A stretch of DNA of 32,768 bases from Actinomycetota bacterium (GTDB lineage Bacteria; Actinomycetota; Actinomycetes; Nanopelagicales; Nanopelagicaceae): assembly GCA_947450545.1 (NCBI GenBank), contig CANFVU010000013.1:1-32768 (forward strand). Reading direction: 5' to 3'. Positions 11,787 to 16,360 of the stretch are shown in pieces. The position numbers and the translations under genes are program-made. The notes beneath the pieces were generated by a model. It worked only from the letters and a program-made list of their open reading frames with translations. It was not told the DNA's origin and did not search any database. Every line of letters begins with the position of its first letter. The stretch's first letter is position 1.

Positions 11787-12905
11787 CTAGTTTCGAGCTA
11801 CTCCCATAACACCGAGGCACATCTCATCGGATGAGCCCTCTCCCCATGTGACATAACGCGGAGCAAGCTTCTTTAGCGCCGGCAGAATCGTTCGTAAATT
11901 CGGATCGAAAGTACACACAACGCGAACAGTGTCGCCCGCTTTCAGGGCAATTGGAGATTTCAGCACTGTTGGGGATTGATCATCAAAGTTGTATTTAGGA
12001 CGATTGAGGATGATTTTCTCTCCAGGAGTACCCGGATTAAGAATCAACTTAAGCGACGTTCCCAATAGGTGCATGTGGGGCGTTGCTTTTACAACGAGCT
12101 CGTTCTGCATAATTCTCTTGTCGCACGTCGATGTAGTGCTTGGTGTTGGCTTGAAAGCGCTTTGACCACACATCAAATTGATTCCAGCAGATTCAAAAGC
12201 GCTTGCCTGTGATGTGCGACGAGCTAAATCAGTGAGCGATTTACCGCGGTCACATAGCTCCCCTGCGACACCAGTAGGACAAGCGAGTTCGACAGGTGCT
12301 GCGACCATATCTCCGTAAAGAGTGCGCAGTTTTGATCCCTTTGCAGGAACCGCAGTGATTTCTACTTTCGATTGATCGGTGACTGTCATTCCGAGCTGAC
12401 GAAGCAAGAGGTTGTAGTGCACTTGCATGACAATGCGATCGCCTTTATGAAATGGCGTTCCGAACCCGGTTGGCATGACATCAACATCTCGTCCTGGTGC
12501 CCATGATGAGAGCCATGGTGATGTAAGGAACGAGGAGAAGCTCGCTCCACTACCAATGCCACCAAAGCAAGGCCAGCCTTCACCGTTGTTATCAAGTGTG
12601 ATTGCTTCCGGTAAATCTTTCGCACTTACTTGGAACAAAATTGCGTGGTGAAAAAGAATTCGCTGTTGTGGAATGAACTTCACGGAAGTGATTAGAGAAT
12701 CTTGTGTGACTTTGGGATCCATCAGGAAGCATCGATAATCATCAGTTCCATCGGCAGGTGCGGTAGGAAGGTGTGGCTTTGTCATCGTTGCCGTGTAGAC
12801 AGTTTTTCCACTTGTGGAGCTCACCGAGTTGGCAGGTGAGACCGAGGTAATAAAGCTTGCGATCAATGCGACCGCGATCACAATTCCAAGGCGCTTTAAT
12901 TTCAT
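11787..12905 (-). CDS. Secreted copper type II monooxygenase-like protein (PHM/DBH fold)
   Basis: A 372-aa protein with an N-terminal signal segment (KRLGIVIAVALIASFITSV). It keeps the ligand pattern of peptidylglycine/dopamine monooxygenases: CuH site LFHHAILF (H86, H87) and MQVHYNLL (H163); CuM site PHMHLLG (H277, H279) and SDEMCLG (M362). All six family ligands therefore appear present. Family enzymes hydroxylate C-H bonds outside the cytoplasm using ascorbate or another reductant; the substrate here is unknown. The frame is open for 61 more codons upstream, but TATCGT 6 nt before the ATG at 12905 and the signal peptide fix the start. It is divergent from the hydrolase-ABC fusion across 61 bp. 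Confidence 0.85.
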   Translation of the reverse strand: MKLKRLGIVIAVALIASFITSVSPANSVSSTSGKTVYTATMTKPHLPTAPADGTDDYRCFLMDPKVTQDSLITSVKFIPQQRILFHHAILFQVSAKDLPEAITLDNNGEGWPCFGGIGSGASFSSFLTSPWLSSWAPGRDVDVMPTGFGTPFHKGDRIVMQVHYNLLLRQLGMTVTDQSKVEITAVPAKGSKLRTLYGDMVAAPVELACPTGVAGELCDRGKSLTDLARRTSQASAFESAGINLMCGQSAFKPTPSTTSTCDKRIMQNELVVKATPHMHLLGTSLKLILNPGTPGEKIILNRPKYNFDDQSPTVLKSPIALKAGDTVRVVCTFDPNLRTILPALKKLAPRYVTWGEGSSDEMCLGVMGVARN

Positions 12906-12911
12906 GGCGCA

Positions 12912-12917
12912 ACGATA
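12912..12917 (-). promoter_or_regulatory. -10 of a leaderless promoter (copper monooxygenase-like gene)
   Basis: The minus strand reads TATCGT, exactly 6 nt before the ATG at 12905. It lies only 37 bp from the opposing -10 at 12955-12960, so the two promoters must share upstream sequence. Confidence 0.5.
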
Positions 12918-12954
12918 GCCGGATTTAGAAATGGCTAATGCCCTCTTAAAGCAA

Positions 12955-12960
12955 TAACGT
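12955..12960 (+). promoter_or_regulatory. -10 of a leaderless promoter (hydrolase-ABC fusion)
   Basis: TAACGT lies exactly 6 nt before the ATG at 12967, in the short divergent region shared with the copper monooxygenase-like gene. Confidence 0.5.
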
Positions 12961-12966
12961 AACGCC

Positions 12967-15513
12967 ATGCGAATGAAAGATGTCACAGACCCACGGTTTA
13001 CAAGGCTTTCGGCAGTAGTAAGTGCCGCTCTCATCTTTCTCTCAACTCTCTTTATAGGAACATCTTTCGCATCGTCGCCTGTTACCACTCACGATCTCAC
13101 TCTTCCTGGTGCATCAGGTGTGCAATTAGATTCAACAATCTTTATTCCTTCTGTTACACCAGCGCCTGCAATCTTGTTAGCGCATGGCTTTGGTGGAGAT
13201 AAATCTTCTGTTGCTGCGCAAGCGCGCGAATTAGCGCAAGCGGGATACGTTGTATTGACCTGGACTGCGCGCGGTTTTGGAAAATCGACTGGAGAGATCT
13301 CTATGGATTCTCCAAGCGGTGAAGTTGCTGATGCGTCAAAGCTCATTGATTACCTTGCACATCAAAAGGAAGTCATCGTTCAAAGTTCTAGAGATCCGCT
13401 CGTTGGTGTTGCTGGATCTTCATATGGTGGAGCTCTCGCTCTCTTAGCCGCTGGTTATGACAAGCGAGTCGACGCAATTGCTGCAAACATCACGTGGAAT
13501 AACTTGGAGCGCGTGCTCTTCCCACAAAATGTTATTGGTTCAACGGCTACCGGTCCCTACAAGAAGTTTTGGGCTGGCACATTTTTCTCGATTGCAACTC
13601 TGCCAAACTCTCTTGCAGGTGAGTGCGGAACATTTACCAAAGAGTGGTGTAATGCATTTAAGAGCGCAGTTGCAACAGGTGCGTCAACGGCTTCACAATC
13701 AAAGCTTTTGAACGCGTCTTCTCCTTCGTCCATCGCAGAAAAGATCACAGCACCAACACTTTTGATGCAAGGAGAGAGTGATTCACTCTTCCCGCTTAGT
13801 GAATCCACTGCGACAGCTGATGCGATTCGCGTGGCACATCCCAAGACTCCCCTAGCCATGATCTGGCACGGTGGTGGTCATGATGGTGGGTTGGATGAAA
13901 CAAAGCGTTTGAATCAAGCAACGCTCGATTGGTTCAATACATACCTAAAGAAGCAAGCAGTATCTATCCCCGCTTTCCAAGTCACCAATACCAACGGCTC
14001 GATTTCGCTCATTGATTCTTCTGTTATTCCAAAGTTTCTCCAAGCAGATCGCTTTCCAAACCAAAGCGGCTCGCGCCAGATTCCAATAACCACTCCATTC
14101 ACAGCGCTTGTCGCACCAATCGGTGGAATACCTGCCGCAATCTCTTCGCTTCCTGGCGTTGGATCTGCAGCAACAGCGCTCTCCATCGCAGGTGGTTCAG
14201 CTGCATTCCTGCCGGGTCAATCTGGATTCCTTGAATCCGATCCGCTCACAACACCAGTCTCGATTGTTGGTGCATCAAAAGTTTCAGTAAAGATTTCATC
14301 TAGCGTGAAAGATGCAACGCTCTTCTTCTCACTTGTTGTGCGCACTCCATCGGGACAGACAAAACTTCCTAACGGAATCGTTGCTCCTGTACATGTCACA
14401 GGGTTAAGTGGGGCCGGTTCAATCTTTACTATCTCACTTCCATCGGTTGTGGTTGATGCATCGATTGGCGACAAACTTGCGGTGGCCATTTCAACGACAG
14501 ACCAGGGTTACACACTTCCCCAAGATGGTCGCCTGTACTCAGTAAGCATTGCATCTCCGCTCACGATTCCTCTCCTCGACTTTAAATCTTCAGCAAGTAA
14601 GAGTGCGCAATTTGTGTGGCCAGTCTCAACTGTTGTTGTGATTCTGCTTGCTGCGCTCTTTGCATATATCCGACGCGCTCGCCATTCAGGCAAGCCTCAA
14701 GTGGAAAGCAACGCTCTCGTCAGTGTCACCAATCTTTCTAAAGTGTATAAAGATGGGTACCAAGCAGTCACCGATTTGTCATTCGAAGTTGAACGTGGAC
14801 AGGTACTTGGACTTCTCGGACCAAATGGCGCAGGTAAAACAACAACGCTTCGCATGATGATGGGCTTGATTTTCCCAACTGAAGGTGAAATTGCGATTGA
14901 AGGGAAGCCTATTTATCCAGGCTCGCCTACTCTTGCAAACCTCGGCTCATTCGTCGAAGGTTCAGGCTTCCTTCCGCATCTTTCCGGACGTGAAAATCTT
15001 GAGCTGTATTGGAAATCCATCGGCCGCGAAGAAGATCCGTATATCGAGGAAGCTATTGCGATTACTGATCTTGGTTCTGCATTAGATAAGAAAGTTCGCT
15101 CGTACTCACAAGGAATGCGCCAGCGTTTGGCTATTGCTCAAGCGATGTTGGGTATGCCTGATCTTCTTGTGCTCGATGAGCCTACAAATGGCTTAGATCC
15201 TCAGCAAATCAAAGCCATGCGCGGAGTTTTGAAAGATTACGCGAAGACGGGACGCACGGTCATTGTCTCTTCTCACCTCTTGGCTGAAGTTGAGCAGACT
15301 TGCTCGCATGTTGTGTTGATGCACCGCGGCAAGCTCATCGCTTTCGGGCCTATGAAGAAGATTCTGAAGCGCAAGGGCAAAGTTGCTGCAAATCTAGAGG
15401 AGATCTTTATCGAACTGGTGGGAGATGAACTCACCATTGGTTTAAATGACACTTTGCAAAAGAAGACGAATTCGTTGCTCAATCAAATTATTCAGAAAGG
15501 GAAGGGTAATTAA
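12967..15513 (+). CDS. Fusion: extracytoplasmic alpha/beta hydrolase (CocE/X-Pro peptidase-like) + ABC transporter ATPase
   Basis: An 848-aa two-part protein. An N-terminal signal/anchor (about 13-35) leads into an alpha/beta hydrolase with nucleophile S152 (GSSYGG), probable acid D272 (GESDSLFP) and His H305 (GGGHDGG). A beta-rich region (about 340-535) resembles the C-terminal domain of X-Pro dipeptidyl peptidase/CocE proteins. One transmembrane helix (about 549-568) then leads to a complete ABC ATPase: Walker A GPNGAGKTT (618-626), signature YSQGM (713-717), Walker B LLVLDEPT (D737, E738), H770. The hydrolase should lie outside and the ATPase inside. The ABC-2 permease begins 1 nt after the stop. 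The frame is continuous, so this is not a merged pair. The substrate is unknown. Confidence 0.9.
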   Translation: MRMKDVTDPRFTRLSAVVSAALIFLSTLFIGTSFASSPVTTHDLTLPGASGVQLDSTIFIPSVTPAPAILLAHGFGGDKSSVAAQARELAQAGYVVLTWTARGFGKSTGEISMDSPSGEVADASKLIDYLAHQKEVIVQSSRDPLVGVAGSSYGGALALLAAGYDKRVDAIAANITWNNLERVLFPQNVIGSTATGPYKKFWAGTFFSIATLPNSLAGECGTFTKEWCNAFKSAVATGASTASQSKLLNASSPSSIAEKITAPTLLMQGESDSLFPLSESTATADAIRVAHPKTPLAMIWHGGGHDGGLDETKRLNQATLDWFNTYLKKQAVSIPAFQVTNTNGSISLIDSSVIPKFLQADRFPNQSGSRQIPITTPFTALVAPIGGIPAAISSLPGVGSAATALSIAGGSAAFLPGQSGFLESDPLTTPVSIVGASKVSVKISSSVKDATLFFSLVVRTPSGQTKLPNGIVAPVHVTGLSGAGSIFTISLPSVVVDASIGDKLAVAISTTDQGYTLPQDGRLYSVSIASPLTIPLLDFKSSASKSAQFVWPVSTVVVILLAALFAYIRRARHSGKPQVESNALVSVTNLSKVYKDGYQAVTDLSFEVERGQVLGLLGPNGAGKTTTLRMMMGLIFPTEGEIAIEGKPIYPGSPTLANLGSFVEGSGFLPHLSGRENLELYWKSIGREEDPYIEEAIAITDLGSALDKKVRSYSQGMRQRLAIAQAMLGMPDLLVLDEPTNGLDPQQIKAMRGVLKDYAKTGRTVIVSSHLLAEVEQTCSHVVLMHRGKLIAFGPMKKILKRKGKVAANLEEIFIELVGDELTIGLNDTLQKKTNSLLNQIIQKGKGN

Positions 15514-15514
15514 T

Positions 15515-16360
15515 ATGTATAACGCTCGTAAAACGCTTCCCTATCGCATTGAGATGTATCGCCAACTCAAGCGCAAGCGCACTTTGTTTGCCTACGTCTT
15601 TGTGATGTCACTTCCTATCATCGTCGCTTTAGCTGTGAAATTCGGAACATCAGGCAACTCAACTGGTCCGACACGTTTTGGATCGGGCACAGCAGATCTC
15701 ATCGGTCTTGCAACAAAAGGTGCGCTGAACTTCACCTCGACTATGTTTTACTTTGCAACACCATTCTTATTGGTCGCTGTTATTTCAATTTTTAACGGTG
15801 ACACTGTTGCATCTGAAGCAAACTGGTCAACACTTCGATATCTCCTTGCATCACCTGTGCCACGCTCACGATTGCTCTTCCAGAAATTAAAAGTCAGCCT
15901 GACTTTGTCAGCCTTTGCAATAGTGATTCTTGTGGGTACATCGTGGGTAGTTGGTGAAATCGCATTTGGTAATGCGCCGTTGCTGACTCCCCTTGGAGTA
16001 ACCATGGCTCCGCATATGGCGATACCGCGTTTATTGATTGTCGCTGGATACCTTGCAATCAACTTACTTTCAGTTGCAGGGTTAGCTTTCTATCTCTCTG
16101 TCGCAACCGATGTACCACTAGGCGCTGTAGGTGGCGCAATTGGAATCATGATTCTCTCTAATATTTTGGATGCCATCACCGGTCTTGGAACTCTGCGGAA
16201 TTGGCTTCCTACCCATTATTCCTTCTCGTGGTTTGATGCCTTTTCAGCCACTATTGATTGGACACAGATGATCCGTGGCGCGAGCTACGCAGTCATGCTC
16301 TTTGGAATATTGATTTCACTCGCTGTGCTTCGCTTTGGTAAGAAAGATGTGACCTCTTAA
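15515..16360 (+). CDS. ABC-2 type transporter permease
   Basis: A 281-aa protein with about six membrane helices. The ABC-2 hallmark after helix 2 is SEANWSTLRYLLASPVPRSR, a cytoplasmic segment that contacts the ATPase. The frame opens earlier (15446), but that part lies inside the fusion gene; the ATG at 15515 has AAGGGAAGGG upstream and follows the fusion stop by 1 nt. It should form the membrane pore for the fused ATPase. ABC-2 permeases usually export lipids, peptides or antibiotics; no direct clue to cargo is visible. Confidence 0.92.
   Translation: MYNARKTLPYRIEMYRQLKRKRTLFAYVFVMSLPIIVALAVKFGTSGNSTGPTRFGSGTADLIGLATKGALNFTSTMFYFATPFLLVAVISIFNGDTVASEANWSTLRYLLASPVPRSRLLFQKLKVSLTLSAFAIVILVGTSWVVGEIAFGNAPLLTPLGVTMAPHMAIPRLLIVAGYLAINLLSVAGLAFYLSVATDVPLGAVGGAIGIMILSNILDAITGLGTLRNWLPTHYSFSWFDAFSATIDWTQMIRGASYAVMLFGILISLAVLRFGKKDVTS

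Follow-up and report, generated by a model that had tools for sequence, protein, structure and literature searches.

What would a hydrolase that works outside the cell gain from being built into the same polypeptide as the motor of a membrane transporter? This question is raised by a locus in a 32,768-nt stretch of DNA, here called the window (positions 1 to 32,768 of the forward strand of contig CANFVU010000013.1, assembly GCA_947450545.1), from an actinobacterium of the family Nanopelagicaceae. In this window, one gene encodes a secretion signal-like segment, a serine hydrolase, a single transmembrane helix and an ATP-binding cassette (ABC) ATPase, and the next gene encodes an ABC-2 permease. 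We found that both catalytic sites and the pairing with the permease are conserved among actinobacteria, and we propose, with a probability of roughly 0.5, that the products may form an exporter of the ABC-2 type, with the hydrolase cleaving the cargo at the outer face.

A hydrolase and an ABC ATPase in one reading frame

The fusion gene occupies positions 12967 to 15513 of the plus strand as a single unbroken frame of 848 codons, and the 281-residue permease (15515 to 16360, plus strand) starts with an ATG at 15515, 1 nt past the TAA of the fusion, as the first-pass annotation of this DNA had described. The host assembly comprises 1.31 Mb in 41 contigs and is given as 88% complete; within it, the only full-length DNA matches are those of the fusion/permease gene pair to itself.

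From its N-terminus, the chain (all coordinates on the plus strand) carries a putative secretion signal of about residues 1-36 (12967 to 13074), suggested by hydropathy and an AxA-like site, its cleavage and exact end being predictions. An alpha/beta hydrolase domain follows at residues 51-305 (13117 to 13881), where Pfam reports Peptidase_S15 (PF02129) with 75.2 bits against a cut-off of 23, and where the codons of the catalytic residues are S152 (13420-13422), D272 (13780-13782) and H305 (13879-13881). Next come a PepX_C-like beta domain (PF08530; residues 423-521, 14233 to 14529), a single predicted transmembrane helix (residues 550-568, 14614 to 14670) that joins the hydrolase to the ATPase, and the ABC ATPase itself (residues 583-806, 14713 to 15384). 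Hydropathy peaks at residues 14-32, in the N-terminal segment, and at the helix; a weaker peak at residues 380-398 (1.53 against a threshold of 1.5) lies within the hydrolase half and was not counted as a helix.

The beta domain had been called CocE/X-Pro-peptidase-like. The window's protein reaches 22.0 bits for PepX_C against a cut-off of 22.5, narrowly short of it, whereas 17 of the 17 members of an alignment of relatives (A1) match it at E ≤ 0.001. The ATPase is complete, as had been stated: ABC_tran (PF00005) scores 104.5 bits at residues 602-741, and Walker A (from G618), the signature (SQG, 714-716), Walker B (DE, 737-738) and the H-switch (H770) are all there, with a Glu at Q-loop position 664. 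We also observed that a C-terminal ATPase extension of about 60 residues is kept in five more distant A1 members (L019-L023) and is absent in the window's genus and in L017.

Both catalytic sites are kept across relatives

The predicted Ser-Asp-His triad was examined in A1, where S152, D272 and H305 are invariant (n = 17), and in a larger alignment of 75 rows, consisting of 70 distinct fused genes, three rows without an ATPase (L120, L125 and L126) and two repeats (L114 is L020; L123 and L124 are one gene). The triad is complete in all 75 rows, so in all 70 distinct fused genes, and ahead of the oxyanion site 74 rows have HG and one has NG. Hydrolase halves average 49% identity over 51 loci, the triad being constant nonetheless. 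On the ATPase side, the Walker A lysine is kept in 72 of 72 fused rows, and the signature, Walker B and H-switch are missing from no rows other than those truncated at the locus end (L018, L121, L124) and those without an ATPase. The first-pass annotation had named homologues lacking one catalytic set as an observation that would speak against it; we looked for such homologues and found the triad kept in the 70 distinct fused genes and the ATPase motifs kept as far as each sequence extends.

At the Q-loop position, 68 of 69 fused rows have Glu and one (L118) has Ala; the 47 nearest unfused ATPases all have Glu, in a comparison that covered no control set of Q-loop ATPases. A Glu in place of the Q-loop Gln is presumably a mark of BcrA/LanF-type ATPases; we found no published source for this in the part of the open-licence literature available to us.

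The fusion is widespread in actinobacteria

With the full protein as query, 60 of 246 genomes and 26 of 103 genera in a class-level sample matched at E ≤ 1e-80, single-contig genomes being among the 60. In one of them (G623), the hydrolase frame is broken and the ATPase and permease still match downstream (locus L164); two genomes (G052 and G556) have two fusion copies each. On a Tsukamurella plasmid, the fusion is annotated as one protein (WP_232066410.1), labelled "alpha/beta fold hydrolase", and overlaps by 4 nt a gene labelled "ABC transporter permease". An assembly or annotation error joining two adjacent genes, which the first-pass annotation had itself raised as a way in which it could be wrong, is hardly compatible with this recurrence, and nothing was found in its favour; we give this explanation practically no weight and dropped it.

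In the window's genus, the fusion was found in 13 of 32 genomes, the host genome counted. The best 80 loci of a scan of named genomes contained 33 with the fusion and 47 with other ABC ATPases; all 33 are titled actinobacteria, no dedicated search having been made outside the phylum. Named carriers among the matches listed include Streptomyces, Kitasatospora, Geodermatophilus, Rhodococcus, Nocardioides, Pseudonocardia, Actinoplanes, Micromonospora, Planomonospora, Streptosporangium and Nonomuraea, besides Tsukamurella. At the level of the phylum, 18 of 396 genomes matched the hydrolase half at E ≤ 1e-40; in one of these (G065), the only such frame is unfused, with 599 residues. A 3.7-kb contig titled as a Bifidobacterium breve metagenome-assembled genome (L024, CAMCSO010000266.1) carries a fusion 52% identical to the window's and is possibly misbinned.

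The permease accompanies the fusion, and the fused form stands apart in both trees

The permease gene adjoins the gene of the ATPase, as in ABC-2 exporters, and its product matches PF12679/PF12730, with ABC2_membrane_2 and ABC2_membrane_4 both above their Pfam cut-offs. It is also the next gene after the fusion in relatives. A simple pick of the next frame found it in 62 of 74 candidates, several of these matches being partial where the locus ends early, and tblastn added four (L023, L046, L052 and L053). Five of the other eight candidates are cut (L018, L024, L039, L121 and L122) and three have no ATPase (L120, L125 and L126), and the permease thus follows in 66 of the 66 rows reaching far enough. 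Over 51 loci, the pairwise distances of the three parts (hydrolase, ATPase and permease) are correlated, with r of 0.93-0.96, which kinship explains in part. A profile search of the PDB with the permease gave no match.

Quick trees were made of each half with unfused relatives picked by similarity to the window's protein. The fused sequences form one side of a branch both in the ATPase tree (68 fused and 47 unfused sequences, support 99) and in the hydrolase tree (70 fused and 19 unfused, support 98), both trees being flagged for long branches. A single fusion event fits the trees of both halves, without being proved by them. Long N-terminal extensions on some unfused ATPases (L065, L084, L095 and L078) were considered as further fusions and rejected by eye as spurious frames.

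Unfused hydrolases prompt a simpler explanation, in which the ATPase subunit would merely display the hydrolase on the cell surface and the two activities would act on different things. Indeed, in 19 of the 20 regions from weaker hydrolase matches, the 4-7.5 kb fetched contained neither a related ATPase (E ≤ 1e-10) nor a related permease (E ≤ 1e-3), the twentieth (L164) being the broken fusion of G623, which was left out of the hydrolase tree. The C-terminus of one unfused hydrolase (L120, the same gene as L165) is an LPATG-like tail with its own helix, so surface attachment exists without a transporter. Against this explanation, a helix by itself would suffice as an anchor, and the fused sequences group on one side of a branch in either tree, occur in 26 of the 103 genera sampled and come with the permease in all 66 rows that reach far enough. 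We consider a role as anchor alone rather unlikely. Another unfused hydrolase (L126/L166) has a long extra part resembling, by eye, what we take to be cell-wall-binding repeats.

Predicted topology and geometry

The arrangement of the chain relative to the membrane was assessed in 66 fused rows, after exclusion of nine unfused, repeated or cut rows from the 75. A helix-like segment lies between hydrolase and ATPase in all 66, and in 57 of them the part following the helix has a higher net charge than the part preceding it, as expected for an outside hydrolase. In line with this location, the three unfused hydrolases examined (L120, L125 and L126) start with signal-like segments. From R569 to K592, 60 of the 66 rows have 23-29 residues; so short a span would hold the hydrolase near the membrane in most rows.

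A hydrophobic N-terminal segment, taken for a signal anchor at first pass, is present in 65 of 66 rows. Whether it stays as an anchor is less certain: 58 of the 66 fused rows have an AxA-like site behind the hydrophobic core (matched with a loose pattern and no background control), and the segment could instead be a signal peptide that is cleaved off. The eight rows lacking such a site include Actinoplanes and Nonomuraea rows that resemble uncleaved anchors.

The stalk between D512 and R569 is similar throughout, with 58-72 residues in the 66 rows. This regularity would suit a machine in which ATPase and permease move no cargo and pull on the outside domain, opening or activating the hydrolase. 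Sequence comparison gives this possibility some support, since the nearest solved structures of the ATPase half are ABCA phospholipid transporters, followed by 1vpl and NosF, and NosDFY is a mechanotransmitting ABC machine that acts on a periplasmic partner. The fusion would resemble NosDFY in having a NosF-like ATPase and an outside working partner, the partner here being a hydrolase that is covalently joined. Two observations weigh on the other side, namely that the permease matches ordinary ABC-2 models and that no regulatory partner recurs alongside across lineages, and we regard such mechanical activation as quite improbable.

Each half has other known counterparts. The fusion shares with S15/CocE-NonD hydrolases (PF02129 and PF08530; TIGR00976) a catalytic and a PepX_C-like domain and the Ser-Asp-His triad; the known members are, to our knowledge, soluble enzymes without a helix or an ATPase. 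The hydrolase half scores 62.8 bits for TIGR00976, below the cut-off of 66.3, its first-ranked NCBIfam model is the lactonase UilS (65.8 against a cut-off of 400), and its nearest PDB chains are two called "Lipase" (8yzo and 8yzn). With exporters of the BcrAB/LanFEG/DrrAB type, the pair shares the Q-loop Glu, a permease of the ABC2_membrane_4 type and the adjacency of the genes, and we know of no outside enzyme attached to their ATPase. The best NCBIfam names for this half, lantibiotic protection (TIGR03740, 181.8 against 309.75) and DrrA (TIGR01188, 170.6 against 312.45), are both far below cut-off. As in C39-type peptidase-containing ABC transporters (PCATs), a protease-like enzyme and an exporter component occur in one chain. 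The peptidase of PCATs is a cysteine-type, cytosolic enzyme on a different type of exporter, whereas the fusion has a serine hydrolase, predicted to lie outside, with an ABC-2 permease; the C39 peptidase that is the hallmark of PCATs was absent from the Pfam results for the window's proteins, which comprised 17 matches down to E ≤ 0.1. The open-licence literature, as far as it could be covered, contained no description of this hydrolase-ATPase fusion, and the statement of the first-pass annotation that it knew of no characterised example is not contradicted there.

A divergent copper monooxygenase-like gene

The first-pass annotation had overlooked a conserved neighbour on the opposite strand. 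This gene (11787 to 12905, minus strand) encodes a type II copper monooxygenase-like protein of 372 residues, assigned by PF03712 and ligand motifs. Translation probably begins at the ATG at 12905, which precedes a signal-like segment; the listed open reading frame start at 13088 would overlap the fusion. The divergent starts are separated by 61 nt (12906 to 12966), a putative shared promoter region. PF03712 scores 25.0 bits against a cut-off of 23, and the N-terminal domain PF01082 is matched in 11 of 17 relatives, with no match reported for the window's protein. The motifs HH, H, HxH and DEMC are present in 27 of 27 aligned rows (one sequence, L183, was dropped for a stop in the frame used) and include the six positions (HH, H, HxH and M) that we take to be copper ligands from mammalian PHM. 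Consistent with this, a profile search of the PDB returned peptidylglycine monooxygenase and dopamine beta-hydroxylase, with a best E-value of 3.7e-5.

The copper gene adjoins the fusion in 11 of 13 regions (the exceptions being L177 and L180), in which the other neighbours are mostly different. Among the 32 genomes of the genus sample, 13 have both genes, 18 have neither and one (G025) has the copper gene alone, with a match that comes within about 40 nt of the end of its contig; Fisher's test gives p = 4e-8 without correction for kinship. Distances of the copper protein and the fusion over nine genomes correlate with r = 0.94, kinship included.

At the level of the family, the hydrolase half was found in 32 of 201 genomes, with frames of at least 766 residues in 25 and shorter ones in seven, whose contig ends were not checked singly. 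By listed positions, the copper gene adjoins the hydrolase half in 25 of these 32. For the other seven, there is no copper match in three (G644, G655 and G724), a distant one of 36-37% identity elsewhere in three (G036, G647 and G665) and one on another contig in G641. The copper gene was matched in 51 of the 201 genomes, 22 of them without a match to the hydrolase half, and ten of these 22 have a relative that is 53-62% identical (G654, G670, G687, G695, G711, G716, G745, G761, G763 and G779). These ten genomes and the seven of 32 in which the genes are not adjacent led us to reject the copper gene as an obligate partner. No copper gene was found in 35 named-record loci, whose flanks reach at most about 10 kb; two of these loci (L024 and L039) are very short.

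Other neighbours and the direction of transport

In 34 named-record loci, the permease is the only gene that recurs widely beside the fusion. Genes resembling those of inositol catabolism lie upstream on the same strand in ten Streptomyces loci (L026, L027, L028, L031, L034, L036, L043, L045, L049 and L056); ten to twelve loci have such genes in all, and the sole case from another genus (L104) is a downstream aldehyde dehydrogenase. In the one locus analysed with Pfam (L031), the families are KduI/IolB, TPP enzyme and aldehyde dehydrogenase. We treat these genes as a lead only, and a universal gene neighbourhood was dropped as an idea.

The inositol-like cluster would suit a scavenging importer, whose hydrolase would free a product outside that the transporter then takes in. 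This is very unlikely in our view, as the cluster recurs in Streptomyces loci only, no binding protein recurs in the unit, and such ABC-2 permeases serve in export. Given the ABC-2 permease and the lack of a recurrent binding protein, the transporter most likely exports a hydrophobic compound or flips it outward.

A role in anti-phage defence was also considered and dropped: the eight PADLOC matches all fall in the ATPase part (residues 590-787; best mad3, 99.9 bits) and were read as generic, and PADLOC gave no match for the permease or the copper gene.

A model for the fusion

In the model that we favour, two fused subunits and two permeases would form an ABC-2-type exporter. The N-terminal signal would send the fused chain out, so that the serine hydrolase and the PepX_C-like domain fold outside; the single helix would span the membrane, and the ATPase would be cytoplasmic, bound to the permease. 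Powered by ATP, the permease may push a hydrophobic compound (lipid-like, drug-like or a peptide) outward, and the hydrolase tethered near the exit would cut an ester, amide or peptide bond in the extruded compound. An invariant triad, together with a tether that is short in most rows, suggests that the hydrolase acts on a compound delivered by the pump. A likely role would be detoxification, or the turnover of a lipid-like or peptide compound. The "self-processing exporter" of the first-pass annotation found no support in our analysis beyond the architecture.

Several points weigh against an exporter that cleaves its cargo. The direction of transport is drawn from family resemblance; the charge pattern holds in 57 of 66 rows, which supports the topology without being clean; the tether between R569 and K592 is longer in six of 66 rows (32, 32, 35, 41, 81 and 116 residues); and no gene that would name the cargo was found to recur across lineages in the 34 loci.

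In the window's family, the adjacent-encoded copper monooxygenase-like enzyme may act on the same compound. A further-reaching version, which we put forward as speculative and rather doubtful, is a module at the outer membrane face in which the secreted copper monooxygenase would hydroxylate a compound, the hydrolase would cleave it as it emerges, and a conformational change driven by ATP would be coupled to hydrolysis. If this were true, an ABC exporter would itself be the enzyme by which its cargo is destroyed or matured.

In conclusion, the fusion is a real and widespread combination of two known kinds of protein, undescribed as far as our limited coverage of the literature shows. Each part is ordinary alone; what surprises is that the two are covalently linked across the membrane and that this link is conserved. 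Many Streptomyces and other actinobacteria carry the fusion, yet the annotation of the Tsukamurella plasmid speaks of a hydrolase only. The gene family is open to knockout in tractable Streptomyces laboratory strains, and the fusion offers a direct way to ask whether the activity of an outside enzyme and ATP-driven transport can be coupled in one chain. If our reading is true, these bacteria would have an exporter whose motor subunit carries, across the membrane, a built-in enzyme for degradation or maturation.

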